Below are positions 132 to 60,821 of a stretch of 64,000 nucleotides of DNA, one piece after another. A program made the position numbers and the translations under genes. Within the stretch, counting starts at the first letter, position 1. Each line of letters opens with the position of its first letter. The stretch spans positions 62,001-126,000 of the forward strand of contig NZ_JACHGO010000002.1 in NCBI RefSeq assembly GCF_014202345.1, in the 5' to 3' direction. The stretch comes from Desulfovibrio intestinalis (lineage in GTDB: Bacteria > Desulfobacterota > Desulfovibrionia > Desulfovibrionales > Desulfovibrionaceae). The notes beneath the pieces were generated by a model that saw nothing but the letters and a program-made list of their open reading frames with translations, had not been told where the DNA came from and made no database searches.

Positions 132-167
132 GAAAAGCCGCAACGGAATTTCCGTTGCGGCTTTTGT
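132..167 (-). terminator. Rho-independent terminator of the SRP RNA gene
   Basis: A near-perfect inverted repeat (AAAAGCCGCAACGGA / TCCGTTGCGGCTTTT) lies directly after the 3' end of the minus-strand SRP RNA. On the minus strand the stem ends in TTTT. Confidence 0.75.
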
Positions 168-249
168 GGGCCGGACACCCGGCAACGTCTGTTGCCGCTG
201 CTTCCTTTCGGACCTGACGGAGTTGGCAGTGTTACCGCCGCCCGGCTTG
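168..249 (-). ncRNA. ffs: Signal recognition particle RNA (4.5S, small bacterial type)
   Basis: Read on the minus strand the sequence contains GTCAGGTCCGAAAGGAAGCA, the conserved apical domain of SRP RNA that binds Ffh: the GGAA tetraloop region and asymmetric loop. The flanks pair as expected for the long hairpin: GCCGG at the 5' end with CCGGC at the 3' end, and CGGTAAC with GTTGCCG. The RNA with Ffh directs signal-peptide-bearing proteins to the membrane. A TTGACA-N17-TAAAGC promoter lies upstream and a terminator directly downstream, so this is a monocistronic gene. The 5' end is placed by spacing from the -10 box and could be off by a few bases. Identification of the core is firm. Confidence 0.9.
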
Positions 250-55466: not shown

Positions 55467-56354
55467 TTAATCAGCCTTCAAAACATCTTCTGCATGACGG
55501 TGTAAAACCTGAGGCAATTGTTCCAGCAGTTGCGCTACCTGCGTGCCGGGGTCAGGCGCACAGTGCCGCGCCAACAGCCGGGCAAGGCGTGCGGCGGCGA
55601 GGCTGGCTTTGCACAGCGGCACCTTGCCCGCCAGCAGGGCCGTGACGAGACCTGTCACCAGATCACCCGTACCGCCGATGCATTCCATCGCTGGTTCCGA
55701 AGGTTCCTCAACCGTTGCGGTAAGCTGTCCGTCACAGACAATATGGTCGGCGCGGCCCTTGATGATGAGGTTGGCAGGGCAGTTGCCGTGCGCTTGGGCT
55801 CGGGCCAGCAATGCAGGAATGTCTTCTTCCTCTGCCAGCAAAAATCCTCTGGTATAGAAAGGATGCGGGGCTTTTTCGTCAGCCAGAAATGCCATCTCGC
55901 CCAGGTCGGGCGTGAAGAGGTCATAAGCGTCGGCATAACCGCTCATCTTGGCCACATACATGAACCCCGCGTCCGCGACCAGCAAAGGGGCTGATTGCAT
56001 CGCCTGTATGGCCATGAGCACACGGTTGTGCCAGTCAACATCCGGGAAAAGATAGTGAAAGGTCAGCCCTTCGGGGGCCAGGCTTTCGACATGTTCTGTG
56101 AGCCACGCGTAAAGGGCGCGGCTGCCAGCGCCGGAACCGATGTCTCCTGCCAGCAAAAGGCGTGGAGGCTCATAGCCCAGAGCTTCGCAGGCCAGCAGTG
56201 CAGTGGCGGCCAGCGCCGCAGTGCCGCGCTGCACAGGGATGGATTTTTCGTCGGCCAGATGCAGCATGCCCCCGCGCACATGCGCCGGAGCCTGGGCCGC
56301 CGCTTCGCAAAGGCCCATATCCTTATTCGGCAGTGTTCCCGCTATGTACCACAC
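55467..56354 (-). CDS. YjeF-C/carbohydrate-kinase-like protein in the selenium operon
   Basis: 295 residues from a GTG eight bases after GGAGG. It resembles the ribokinase-like fold of ADP/ATP-dependent NAD(P)H-hydrate dehydratases: PRLLLAGDIGSGAGSRALYA, LVADAGFMYVAKMSG, FTPDLGEMAFLADEKAPHPF, NLIIKGRADHIVCDG and the anion-hole/catalytic ECIGGTGDLVTGLVTALLAG. Sequence is diverged from the typical enzyme and the epimerase half is absent. The start overlaps the DUF3343 gene by 13 bases, so it is translated with it. Function within selenium metabolism is unknown. Confidence 0.75.
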   Translation of the reverse strand: MWYIAGTLPNKDMGLCEAAAQAPAHVRGGMLHLADEKSIPVQRGTAALAATALLACEALGYEPPRLLLAGDIGSGAGSRALYAWLTEHVESLAPEGLTFHYLFPDVDWHNRVLMAIQAMQSAPLLVADAGFMYVAKMSGYADAYDLFTPDLGEMAFLADEKAPHPFYTRGFLLAEEEDIPALLARAQAHGNCPANLIIKGRADHIVCDGQLTATVEEPSEPAMECIGGTGDLVTGLVTALLAGKVPLCKASLAAARLARLLARHCAPDPGTQVAQLLEQLPQVLHRHAEDVLKAD

Positions 56355-57046
56355 GGATATTGCCTCCGCAGTTCTTCGTAGGCCTTTTGCAGGCTGTAGC
56401 AGCACAGCGTCTGCCCCAGACTTCGCGGTTCCGGGGCTTCGTCCAGCCGCAGGCCGCACAGGCAGTGCGCAAGCCAGGGAACGTCCGGGCAGCCGCCGCC
56501 GGATATATTCACAATGCGGCCATCGCGTTTGTCGAGGGTAATCTTCATATTGGCGGCGCGCACCATGATCCAGTGCTCCAGGTGTTTGACCTGATAAAGA
56601 GACACAGGCTCAAGCAGCACATCGTGGGCAGTGACGACCTGTTCTGGCCGAAGACCGCCTTTGTTCAGTGTTTCCAGCACCAGCGTCTGACTGACCAGCT
56701 CAAAAACCACCACCATATCGCAGCCTGTGCGTAATTGCGGCGGCGGGCCTTTGACTTCAACGGCCAGTCCGGCCTTGCGCAGCAGACTTTCGGCCTTGAT
56801 GACTTCACCCGTGTGAGAAAACACCAGCAGCCCACGGTCACTGAGCGCTTTGGCTGCGCCCTGGTCTGAGGAAACTTCGTTTGAAGCGGGCCGGCCATTC
56901 GCCGGAACAGGCCCACGAGCCGTCCCACGGGCTGGTCCACGGCTAATCCCTCGGGCAGCCCCGTTGCCAAGCCCGTTCAGGGCCTGACGAAGCCTGCTCA
57001 ATAATCCGCCGGATTTCTTGCTGATGTCAGTGGGTTTACTGGTCAT
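56342..57046 (-). CDS. DUF3343-type putative selenium/sulfur carrier protein with extended ends
   Basis: 234 residues. The central part (about 75-140) resembles DUF3343: GLLVFSHTGEVIKAESLLRK, LAVEVKGPPPQLRTGCDMVV. Normal DUF3343 proteins are about 80 residues; this one has a basic, Gly/Arg/Pro-rich N-terminus (ARGISRGPARGTARGPVPAN) and a C-terminal domain with a Cys-rich patch (ISGGGCPDVPWLAHCLCG, TLCCYSLQKAYEEL). AGGG lies before ATG. It follows yedE-yedF after a 215-base gap holding hairpin element C, and overlaps the kinase-like gene. Confidence 0.72.
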   Translation of the reverse strand: MTSKPTDISKKSGGLLSRLRQALNGLGNGAARGISRGPARGTARGPVPANGRPASNEVSSDQGAAKALSDRGLLVFSHTGEVIKAESLLRKAGLAVEVKGPPPQLRTGCDMVVVFELVSQTLVLETLNKGGLRPEQVVTAHDVLLEPVSLYQVKHLEHWIMVRAANMKITLDKRDGRIVNISGGGCPDVPWLAHCLCGLRLDEAPEPRSLGQTLCCYSLQKAYEELRRQYPCGT

Positions 57047-57091
57047 TGTGGCCCTTTGCCGGGCGGGCAAGCCCGCCCGGATGGTTCTGGA

Positions 57092-57234
57092 CAGTGCCGT
57101 CACGAGCGCCTTTCTTGGTATTTTTACGTCGAACTTTGCCTTTTATTCCGGTCGAGTACCATAAGAGTACACTCCCTGCATAAAAGGCTTGCTCTTCTTG
57201 ATATACCAAGGAAATCCATTTCGTGACGGCACTG
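57092..57234. repeat. Long hairpin element, copy C, inside the selenium operon
   Basis: Terminal inverted repeat CAGTGCCGTCACGA / TCGTGACGGCACTG. Nested arms CTTGGTAT/ATACCAAG and GCCTTTTAT/ATAAAAGGC enclose CCGGTCGAGTACCATAAGAG and TACACTCC. It lies between the TusA-type gene and the DUF3343 gene and could attenuate transcription. Confidence 0.8.
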
Positions 57235-57261
57235 CCCAGTGCAAATGGCTGGAGCAGGGCG

Positions 57262-57480
57262 TCAGGACTTGTGGATTTCCAGCCGGGTTATGCCCTGGCC
57301 TTCATCGGCGGTCTCCACGCTGTAGCCCCGGTTGCGTGCGGCGCGGCTGACGTTTTCAAGGCTGGCGTCATTGTCCACCAGCACGCTGAAAGCATTGGAA
57401 GCATCAGCTTTGGCGGCGTTGAGAAAGAGCAGCACAGGCTGCGGGCAGGAAAGGCCGCGGGTATCAATAAGTTCAGACAT
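57262..57480 (-). CDS. TusA-family protein (short YedF-like)
   Basis: 72 residues with the TusA/SirA signature LIDTRGLSCPQPVLLFLNAA; the active Cys-Pro is at residues 11-12. A beta strand end (YSVETADEGQGITRLEIHK) completes the fold. YedF proteins tied to selenium usually carry an extra DsrE domain, which is lacking. The ATG overlaps the yedE stop (TAATG). It is the likely carrier of persulfide or selenide delivered by the YedE transporter. Confidence 0.85.
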   Translation of the reverse strand: MSELIDTRGLSCPQPVLLFLNAAKADASNAFSVLVDNDASLENVSRAARNRGYSVETADEGQGITRLEIHKS

Positions 57481-58574
57481 TACGCGCCTCTCTTGCAATT
57501 AAAGAATCCTATGAACAGGCAAATGCCAAGTCCTGCCAGTGTGGCGGCCATGCCGTGGGGGCCGATGCCAGCCGTGCTGGAGGCCATGCCGAAGTTGTGG
57601 GCCATAGCCGTGCCCACGATGAGGCCGACAGCAAAAACGGCGGCGTCGTTGTCGCCTTCGCCAGCCATGAAAAGCTGACGGCCAGGGCAGCCTCCGGCCA
57701 GGGCAAAGGCAAGACCAGCTGTAACCATACCCATAAAGTTCCAGAGGTTGTTGGGCTGTGCCACAGGCTGGTTTTCAAAGCCCCAGTGAAAGGAGCCAAA
57801 GCTGAGGTTCATGACCAGAGCTGCTGCAAACATCGCAATGAAGCCGAGGGCCAGATACCACTGGTTGAAAAGAATGACGTCGCGCAGCGCGCCCATTGTG
57901 CAAAAGCGGCTGCGCTGGGCCAGAAAGCCCACGGCAAGGCCTGCGCACAAAGAGAAGATAAAGGGCGCGTGCTGTGAGCCGGGACCCTTTATGGAATAAA
58001 AGAGCACGCCGCTCTTGAGTTCGCCGATTATCTGCGGATCAGCAAGATACAGGGCCACAAGACCAAGCATCATCGCGGGCAGCAGCAGGCCCGAGATCTT
58101 GCCCTGATTCTGGCTGCGGCCAAGCGAAAATCCCATGCGGAAAAATACGGTGCCAATGCCTACACCAACAATAAGGCCAGCAAGTCCAAAAAGAGCGTGG
58201 GCGTCACCGCCTGCCAGACGCAGAATGACGCGCCAGGGGCAACCCAGAAAAACCAGTGCGCCTATGCCGGCGATGGCTCCAAGGAAAAAGCGGGTAATGG
58301 GGGCAGAACCGCCGCGTGGCTTGTACTCGCCAAAAAGCATGGCTGCCGCAAAGGCTCCAAGCACCATGCCCAGAATTTCAGGGCGCAGGTACTGCACAAG
58401 TTCAGCTCTGTGCAGGCCGACCGCCCCGGCGATGTCGCGGTTGAAGCAGACTACGCAAATGCCCATATTGCCGGGATTGCCAGCCTGTTGCAGCAATACT
58501 GCCACAACGCCAAAAATGAGGCCCACTACAACTATGCCTGTTGTGGTGGAAAGGACGTTGAAATACTGTTTCAT
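57480..58574 (-). CDS. yedE: YedE-family putative selenium (thiosulfate-type) transporter
   Basis: A 364-residue membrane protein of the YeeE/YedE family with about nine helices. The conserved cysteines and glycine motifs that line the conduction path are present: NPGNMGICVVCFNRDIAGA, VFLGCPWRVILRLAGGDA, LAQRSRFCTMGALRDVILF and FALAGGCPGRQLFMAGEGD. The long form with CPWR and GEGD is the subtype associated with selenium utilisation. AGGAGG lies before ATG. It heads a four-gene operon (yedE, tusA/yedF, DUF3343, kinase-like). Confidence 0.9.
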   Translation of the reverse strand: MKQYFNVLSTTTGIVVVGLIFGVVAVLLQQAGNPGNMGICVVCFNRDIAGAVGLHRAELVQYLRPEILGMVLGAFAAAMLFGEYKPRGGSAPITRFFLGAIAGIGALVFLGCPWRVILRLAGGDAHALFGLAGLIVGVGIGTVFFRMGFSLGRSQNQGKISGLLLPAMMLGLVALYLADPQIIGELKSGVLFYSIKGPGSQHAPFIFSLCAGLAVGFLAQRSRFCTMGALRDVILFNQWYLALGFIAMFAAALVMNLSFGSFHWGFENQPVAQPNNLWNFMGMVTAGLAFALAGGCPGRQLFMAGEGDNDAAVFAVGLIVGTAMAHNFGMASSTAGIGPHGMAATLAGLGICLFIGFFNCKRGA

Positions 58575-59414: not shown

Positions 59415-59484
59415 GTATCCTCCCGTAACGTCTACCTGCCCAAAGCCTAACGCTTTTTGTGGTTGAAGAAAAGTCCCCCACCAA

Positions 59485-59513
59485 TTGACAAGGTAGAAGC
59501 ATGGCCTTAGTTA
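59485..59513 (+). promoter_or_regulatory. Promoter of the HesB-like selenoprotein gene
   Basis: Perfect TTGACA, 17-base spacer, TAGTTA, about 30 bases upstream of the start codon. The downstream paralog has its own perfect TATAAT at 59921-59926. Confidence 0.5.
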
Positions 59514-59541: not shown

Positions 59542-59856
59542 ATGATTCAGTTGACCGACAACGCCCGCAAGGAACTTGATACCTTCTTTGCGGACAAGAA
59601 AAAGGATCCGATTCGGATTTACCTCTCGGCTGGTTGAGGCGGCCCGCGCCTCGCTCTGGCTCTGGATGAGCCGAATGACCAGGATACAACCGAGGAACAG
59701 GCTGGGTATACCTTCTGCATGAGCAAAGCCTTGCTGAATGAAGTGAAGGGAATTACTGTTGATTTAACGTATATGGGCTTTACGATCACCCCAGACGTGC
59801 CCCTTGCTTCAGAAGGCGATGGTTGCAGCAGCTGCTCAAGCTGCGGAAGCCACTAA
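59542..59856 (+). CDS. HesB/IscA-like selenoprotein (in-frame TGA read as selenocysteine)
   Basis: 104 residues if TGA at codon 32 is read through. Upstream: MIQLTDNARKELDTFF and IRIYLSAG; then Sec; then GGPRLALALDEPND, TFCMSKALLNEVKG, VDLTYMGFTITPDVPLA and a tail GCSSCSSCGSH. The paralog 98 bases downstream aligns throughout, with Cys33 in PGGCSGPRLALALD opposite the TGA (one-residue gap beside it). Identity, codon use and the C-terminal Cys cluster continue unbroken after TGA, so it is not a decayed gene. GGAGGACATC precedes ATG. HesB-like selenoproteins are a known family in Desulfobacterota/Geobacter. A hairpin begins within the TGA. Role: probably Fe-S or selenium/redox handling; not established. 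Confidence 0.9.
59635..59652 (+). promoter_or_regulatory. UGA codon and candidate SECIS hairpin
   Basis: TGA at 59635-59637 starts the stem GAGGCG/CGCCTC (six pairs, five-base loop GCCCG) at 59636-59652. A wider fold with the following GCTCTGG repeats is possible. Bacterial SECIS elements lie directly downstream of UGA within the coding frame, as here, but the SelB-binding loop is not confirmed. Confidence 0.55.
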
Positions 59857-59953
59857 CCAAACGGGCCTGGTTCCCCGTTGGCCACTGAAGCATACAGCCT
59901 GTTTTTCGGAATATAAATCATATAATATGCCCGAAAAAAATCATGGAGGAACC

Positions 59954-60274
59954 ATGCTCGAACTTACCGAAAGCGCCCAGAAAGAACTGGCAGCCTACTT
60001 TGAAGGCAAGGAAAAAAGCGACATCCGCGTCTATCTTGCCCCCGGTGGCTGCAGCGGTCCCCGTCTTGCGTTGGCTCTTGACGCCGCCACTGATGAGGAC
60101 CAGAGCGAAGAGCAGGGTGGCTTCACCTTCTGCATCAACAAAGATCTGCTGACTCAGATTGAAGGCGTGAAAATCGACCTCACCTATATGGGCTTTATGG
60201 TGGAACCCACCATTCCCCTGCCCCAGAGCGAGGGCGGCTGCTCCGGCTGCTCCGGCGGCTGCGGCACCAATTAG
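59954..60274 (+). CDS. HesB/IscA-like protein, cysteine-containing paralog
   Basis: 106 residues closely matching the selenoprotein before it: LELTESAQKELAAYFEGK, IRVYLAPGGCSGPRLALALD, FCINKDLLTQIEGVKIDLTY, MGFMVEPTIPLP and a Cys-rich end GCSGCSGGCGTN. The conserved CSG-type cysteine pattern of A-type Fe-S carriers is altered: one core Cys and a C-terminal cluster of three remain. GGAGGAACC lies before ATG and TATAAT at 59921 gives it a promoter of its own. A strong terminator follows. Confidence 0.9.
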   Translation: MLELTESAQKELAAYFEGKEKSDIRVYLAPGGCSGPRLALALDAATDEDQSEEQGGFTFCINKDLLTQIEGVKIDLTYMGFMVEPTIPLPQSEGGCSGCSGGCGTN

Positions 60275-60297
60275 CAAGCAGACAGGTACATTTGACC

Positions 60298-60321
60298 GGG
60301 GGCGGCTTTAGAGCCGCCCCC
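60298..60321 (+). terminator. Rho-independent terminator of the HesB-like pair
   Basis: GGGGGCGGCT / AGCCGCCCCC with a TTAG loop, followed by GCGTCTGTTTT, 23 bases after the stop. Confidence 0.8.
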
Positions 60322-60821
60322 GCGTCTGTTTTAAGCATACGGTTGCAGCGGTTATGCACGCTCAAAGCGCCAAACACGCACCTTGGCTGTTGGTTGCGCA
60401 AGTATTTGATACGGCAGACTTTTTCTCTGTTATAGGGTGTGGTCAAAAGCTTGCCTGAGTTGTTAGCAAGTGTCTTGCGGGTCAAGTCTGCGAAACTGCC
60501 TATGGCGCAAATCGCTGCGTCGGGCAGCAGGGCCGGTACAAGCACGGCCTGAGCGGCAACTGTTGGCAAATTCGCAGGCCTTATGAATGGTGCAGCAATT
60601 GCGAAGAACAGACCGCGTTGTTTGCGTACTGTATTTATCTGGTGGTTTGCGGCAGCCGTTGCCCGAAGGGCGTTCGGCTGGCGACAGCACTCTGGCAACA
60701 TTGTCATAGGGTAAAGCAGCCTTTTCAGATTTCGTAATTTTCAGCAAAAGCTTTGCGGGATTCGCCCGCGTGCACAGCATGGCCGGGCAGGAACATCGGT
60801 CAGCCATATGGAAACAGGTTA
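60322..60821. other. Upstream region of mfd
   Basis: No gene is supported. It carries a 40-bp sequence (60649-60688) shared with 38988-39027 and a GTTGTTAGCAAG-rich stretch. No clear promoter was identified. Confidence 0.4.

Follow-up and report, generated by a model that had tools for sequence, protein, structure and literature searches.

A candidate selenocysteine-containing IscA/HesB-family protein and its tandem cysteine paralog in Desulfovibrio intestinalis

HesB-like proteins are listed among the selenoproteins of Desulfovibrio vulgaris and D. desulfuricans (PMC1794560), and DVU_1382 of D. vulgaris is a HesB-like selenoprotein (PMC1914089). In Methanococcus maripaludis, mutagenesis and 75Se labelling identified a HesB-like selenoprotein (PMC11097638), and a Sec-to-Cys event together with a SECIS remnant was reported earlier for the HesB-like family (PMC1794560). 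In our literature search, no paper was found that joins HesB, selenocysteine, iron-sulfur cluster and carrier.

We analysed a 64,000-nucleotide stretch of the D. intestinalis contig NZ_JACHGO010000002.1 (hereafter the window), from a genome of 3.44 Mb that is 99.97% complete. Judged by sequence, one of its genes is a further member of the selenoprotein family already described in related sulfate reducers. Two points go beyond what is known: the recurrent Sec-to-Cys exchange or duplication deduced from homologs, some Cys copies still bearing SECIS remnants, and the absence of a canonical A-type carrier above cut-off in 21 genomes.

The gene, its paralog and their family

The features first needed here are the following.

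59542 to 59856, plus strand: IscA/HesB family selenoprotein gene, from its NF038090 score and translation; 104 aa, then a TAA stop
59635 to 59637, plus strand: in-frame TGA, assigned as Sec32, on the GGCSG cysteine position of IscA-type proteins
59822 to 59849 (approximate limits), plus strand: Cys-rich tail CSSCSSCG, likely to supply the remaining metal or chalcogen ligands
59954 to 60274, plus strand: Cys-containing tandem paralog of the same family, 106 aa; NF038090 105.3 bits (cut-off 85)
56342 to 58574, minus strand: selenium-metabolism-like genes (YedE putative selenium transporter, TusA/YedF-like, DUF3343 Se/S-carrier-like)
164 to 249, minus strand: bacterial small SRP RNA

With TGA translated as Sec, the readthrough product is MIQLTDNARKELDTFFADKKKDPIRIYLSAGUGGPRLALALDEPNDQD...CSSCSSCGSH, with a single U at position 32. 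In the alignment IYLS-AGUGGPRLALALD stands against VYLAPGGCSGPRLALALD, so U32 pairs with Cys33 of the paralog. Translation across a TGA at codon 32 and its position opposite the paralog cysteine had both been proposed in an earlier note on this DNA, and both are borne out. The same note expected a standard gene caller to split or miss the gene, and a plain table-11 reading does end at the TGA; a selenoprotein gene truncated in this way can drop out of annotation.

The Sec protein scores 96.4 bits against NF038090 (IscA_HesB_Se, NCBIfam; curated cut-off 85). The match is full-length with Sec or Cys at the same place, and no feature distinguishes the window gene from this family. This agrees with the HesB/IscA-like assignment made earlier, and with the accompanying statement that HesB-like proteins are recognised prokaryotic selenoproteins, which were already in Desulfovibrio lists of 2006 and 2007. 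The resemblance to the HesB-like selenoproteins of D. vulgaris (DVU_1382) and D. desulfuricans is one of description: the same family name, related bacteria and an in-frame TGA. TIGR01911 (HesB_rel_seleno, HesB-like) shares the fold and the motif UxGP, but was rejected as the family of the window gene since the Sec protein reaches 30.9 bits, far under the cut-off of 66.35; for this reason we regard TIGR01911 as a sister family.

The protein also falls short of the IscA model (19.8 bits, cut-off 150.6) and of TIGR00049 (30.7 bits, cut-off 58.8), and its tail is of the CxxC type whereas that of IscA is CGC. It shares its predicted fold with IscA, SufA and ErpA, and has Sec at the position of the ligand cysteine. 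An AlphaFold model (pLDDT 86.5, with a disordered tail under 50) matched IscA and SufA in Foldseek at E-values of 1e-6 to 1e-5 (1x0g, 1r94, 2d2a). The match to 1x0g, IscA with [2Fe-2S], had an E-value of 1.1e-6, and the predicted structure is thus of the A-type carrier fold. A sequence profile likewise matched A-type carriers and aligned U32 with their GGCSG cysteine, in support of the earlier proposal that Sec replaces the carrier cysteine. Among 41 Sec proteins, C101 of the tail is invariant and C95 nearly so; C59 is neither.

Decoding of the UGA

The earlier note had named selA, selB, selC and selD as genes to look for, and had taken a lack of selC or selB as evidence against its reading. 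All four are in the host genome, which has a tRNA-Sec (79.5 bits, cut-off 47) and encodes SelA, SelB and SelD. It had also suggested aligning homologs for exchange between Sec and Cys. In the first 130 homologs, from the neighbourhoods of relatives, the same column holds TGA in 69 and a Cys codon in 57. An enlarged set with named genome contigs, in which some genomes are counted in both sources, gives 129 TGA and 120 Cys copies at one column, and each of the 129 has exactly one TGA within the scanned first 60 residues, at the Cys column. Across 80 genomes tested, tRNA-Sec was found in 50/50 with a TGA copy and in 8/30 of those without one, which have only Cys copies or none (Fisher p 2e-13, in a test that ignores shared ancestry).

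Two nearby hairpins were considered as the SECIS element.

59658 to 59672, plus strand: SECIS hairpin GGCUC-UGGAU-GAGCC, five pairs with a UGGAU loop
59636 to 59652, plus strand: hairpin starting in the TGA, pointed out in the earlier note; rejected as the SECIS

According to a 2026 review, bacterial SECIS elements have a stem of 4-16 bp, a loop of 3-9 nt that carries a G in its first or second position and lies 16-37 nt from the UGA, and a folding energy no higher than -7.5 kcal/mol (PMC13188914). The hairpin at 59658-59672 conforms to these rules, with a 5-nt loop, 5-6 bp, G in second place, a UGA-to-loop distance of 25 nt and -9.5 kcal/mol; an additional U-G pair (59657/59673) is present in this genome. 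Its five pairs and UGGA loop are intact in 68/69 Sec genes. When Sec genes were recoded synonymously, with codons sampled from the remainder of the same genes, the five pairs were kept in 2% on average and at most 10%. Covariation was seen in three pairs, in which both sides have changed, and in Cys paralogs 48% of cells at this position are paired. By these sequence comparisons, the putative SECIS hairpin is conserved far beyond protein-coding need.

The stem-loop starting in the TGA, to which the earlier note had drawn attention, does exist and is stable (-10.1 kcal/mol), but the conserved, covarying SECIS is the next hairpin. The former was rejected as the SECIS because its conservation is low (72% of cells paired in 60 distinct Sec genes) and its apical loop lies too near the UGA, 4 nt past it.

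That the table-11 reading ends at the TGA is what would be expected if the codon were a genuine stop or a frame-preserving error, leaving a pseudogene or two separate ORFs. Over the 153 nt 3' of the TGA, there are no stops in the read frame and four in each other frame. In 15 pooled Sec genes of the genus, the per-site ratio of nonsynonymous to synonymous differences is 0.264 before the TGA and 0.211 beyond it. This comparison of coding sequences indicates purifying selection downstream of the TGA; the earlier note had regarded homologs without conservation past the stop as evidence against its reading, and the homologs are not of that kind. Since this selection acts downstream and only the read frame is open there, a pseudogene or true stop is excluded, and with 129 copies sharing the TGA at one column and the SECIS conserved, we regard this explanation as extremely improbable. 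Readthrough by reassignment or leaky termination has nothing in its favour except the open frame, and is just as hard to credit in a genome with tRNA-Sec, SelA, SelB and SelD: tRNA-Sec was found in all tested genomes that have a TGA copy, and the TGA swaps with Cys codons, as Sec would. Decoding of UGA 59635-59637 as Sec is strongly supported by the combination of Sec machinery, U/C exchange, downstream selection, a SECIS hairpin and co-occurrence with tRNA-Sec.

The host SelD gene (L018, G000:C1:86698-87645) itself has one in-frame TGA and probably encodes a selenoprotein as well.

Exchange of Sec and Cys among homologs

In a tree of 123 copies, parsimony needs 22 changes between Sec and Cys, an approximate count given the few columns (105), and at least eight are forced by well-supported branches. 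In several lineages, the Sec and Cys copies within a genome are sisters; L094, L106, L113 and L128 are examples. From this tree, Sec-to-Cys exchange or duplication appears to have happened many times.

The full SECIS hairpin is retained in the Cys copies L051, L072 and L094; tRNA-Sec was not detected in genomes G001 and G047, the source of L051 and L072. A Sec copy (L149, TGA) and a Cys copy (L150, TGC) have 86% DNA identity over 264 bases, and the hairpin is intact in both. The retained hairpins and the L149/L150 pair point to change in the direction from Sec to Cys.

Other paralogs were also observed. In the D. piger group (L053, L074, L078, L086), Sec and Cys copies are nearly identical N-terminally (SENARKELEAYFADKERQ), suggesting that gene conversion has taken place between them. 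Nitratidesulfovibrio and genomes like it have an extra paralog that carries Ser in the Sec/Cys column and no longer has the Cys-rich tail. A diverged paralog with neither Sec nor Cys at the column and a GGxCGGxC-type tail adjoins the Sec/Cys pair in Solidesulfovibrio and comparable genomes.

L117:4055, L158:4588, L161:4459, L162:4467, L165:4462 and L171:4272: Ser-column paralog
L108:2862, L193:5891, L196:5898, L202:5865 and L205:6017: paralog with the GGxCGGxC-type tail

Possible carrier role and organisation of the locus

A TIGR00049 search of 21 genomes, including the host, found no A-type carrier above cut-off, and among 14 control genomes eight passed. In the host genome the only two matches, both below cut-off, are the window Sec and Cys genes. 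The six-frame search may overlook weak matches (none was obtained for G085, which has a Sec copy), although a canonical carrier is expected to score well. PF01521 proved too insensitive for genome searches, missing even both window copies, and TIGR00049 was used instead. A NifU/IscU-type scaffold is present in the host. These sequence searches suggest that the window family fills the place of the A-type carrier.

We therefore consider that the Sec-decoded IscA/HesB-fold protein and its Cys paralog probably serve as A-type carriers, as no canonical one was found in the genome or its relatives, and put the probability of this reading at about 0.55. SelB and tRNA-Sec would decode the UGA with the aid of the SECIS hairpin, placing Sec where E. 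coli IscA has its ligand Cys35. By homology, Sec together with C95, C98 and C101 of the tail would most likely hold iron, an Fe-S cluster or some other soft ligand, and both proteins would probably act as the A-type carrier between the NifU-type scaffold and client proteins. Tighter or redox-tuned binding may be what favours the Sec form; the Cys paralog may serve as a backup that needs no selenium.

Several findings count against the carrier reading. The tail pattern is unlike the CGC of IscA, its disorder in the model leaves any ligand geometry hypothetical, and the neighbours are PyrR and genus-only selenium genes, not isc/suf. In addition, an M. maripaludis mutant in a HesB-like selenoprotein had normal nitrogen fixation (PMC11097638), so that a vital role in cluster delivery is not general. 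A selenoprotein engaged in redox or selenium chemistry, such as the handling of selenide or of a soft metal or metalloid, and not in Fe-S delivery, is a credible though less probable explanation; the earlier note had suggested that the protein may do redox or selenium chemistry in preference to simple cluster delivery. Sec with a CxxC tail looks like a thiol/selenol site, the review cited above anticipates that most such proteins have redox functions (PMC13188914), and YedE, TusA/YedF-like and DUF3343 genes lie close by in this genus. Among the loci examined, however, these genes are nearby only in Desulfovibrio, whereas PyrR is the divergent neighbour at 101/161 loci across the family, and we rejected the selenium linkage as a general functional clue because it is confined to the genus. 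The protein retains the IscA fold and ligand position, and Cys paralogs are kept in genomes where no tRNA-Sec was detected, so selenium is not indispensable. Given that the 21 genomes yielded no canonical A-type carrier above cut-off, a carrier role is at least as likely as redox or selenium chemistry.

An extension of the carrier reading, that all A-type Fe-S carrier function in Desulfovibrionales resides in the window family, is selenium-dependent in Sec-only lineages and has been repeatedly replaced by Cys copies, strikes us as unlikely. If it were true, Fe-S delivery would proceed via a Sec ligand and the Cys copies would be recurrent selenium-independent replacements. Tandem Sec/Cys pairs, exchange among close Desulfovibrio and the lack of canonical carriers make this a clean system for the contribution of selenium to an iron-sulfur carrier.

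Three further elements lie around and between the two genes.

59484 to 59513, plus strand: promoter-like element ATTGACAAG-N12-CCTTAGTTA, upstream of the Sec gene
59902 to 59938, plus strand: inverted repeat TTTTTCGG...CCGAAAAA, directly upstream of the Cys paralog
60297 to 60322, plus strand: terminator-like hairpin, 3' of the Cys paralog

The Sec and Cys genes may be co-transcribed, since a terminator-like hairpin lies after the Cys gene and none was found between the genes on the plus strand. The promoter-like element did not pass a generic sigma-70 scan, and is recognisable in 17/17 aligned sequences of the genus, the window included. The inverted repeat is present in several near relatives, with a spacer of varying length.
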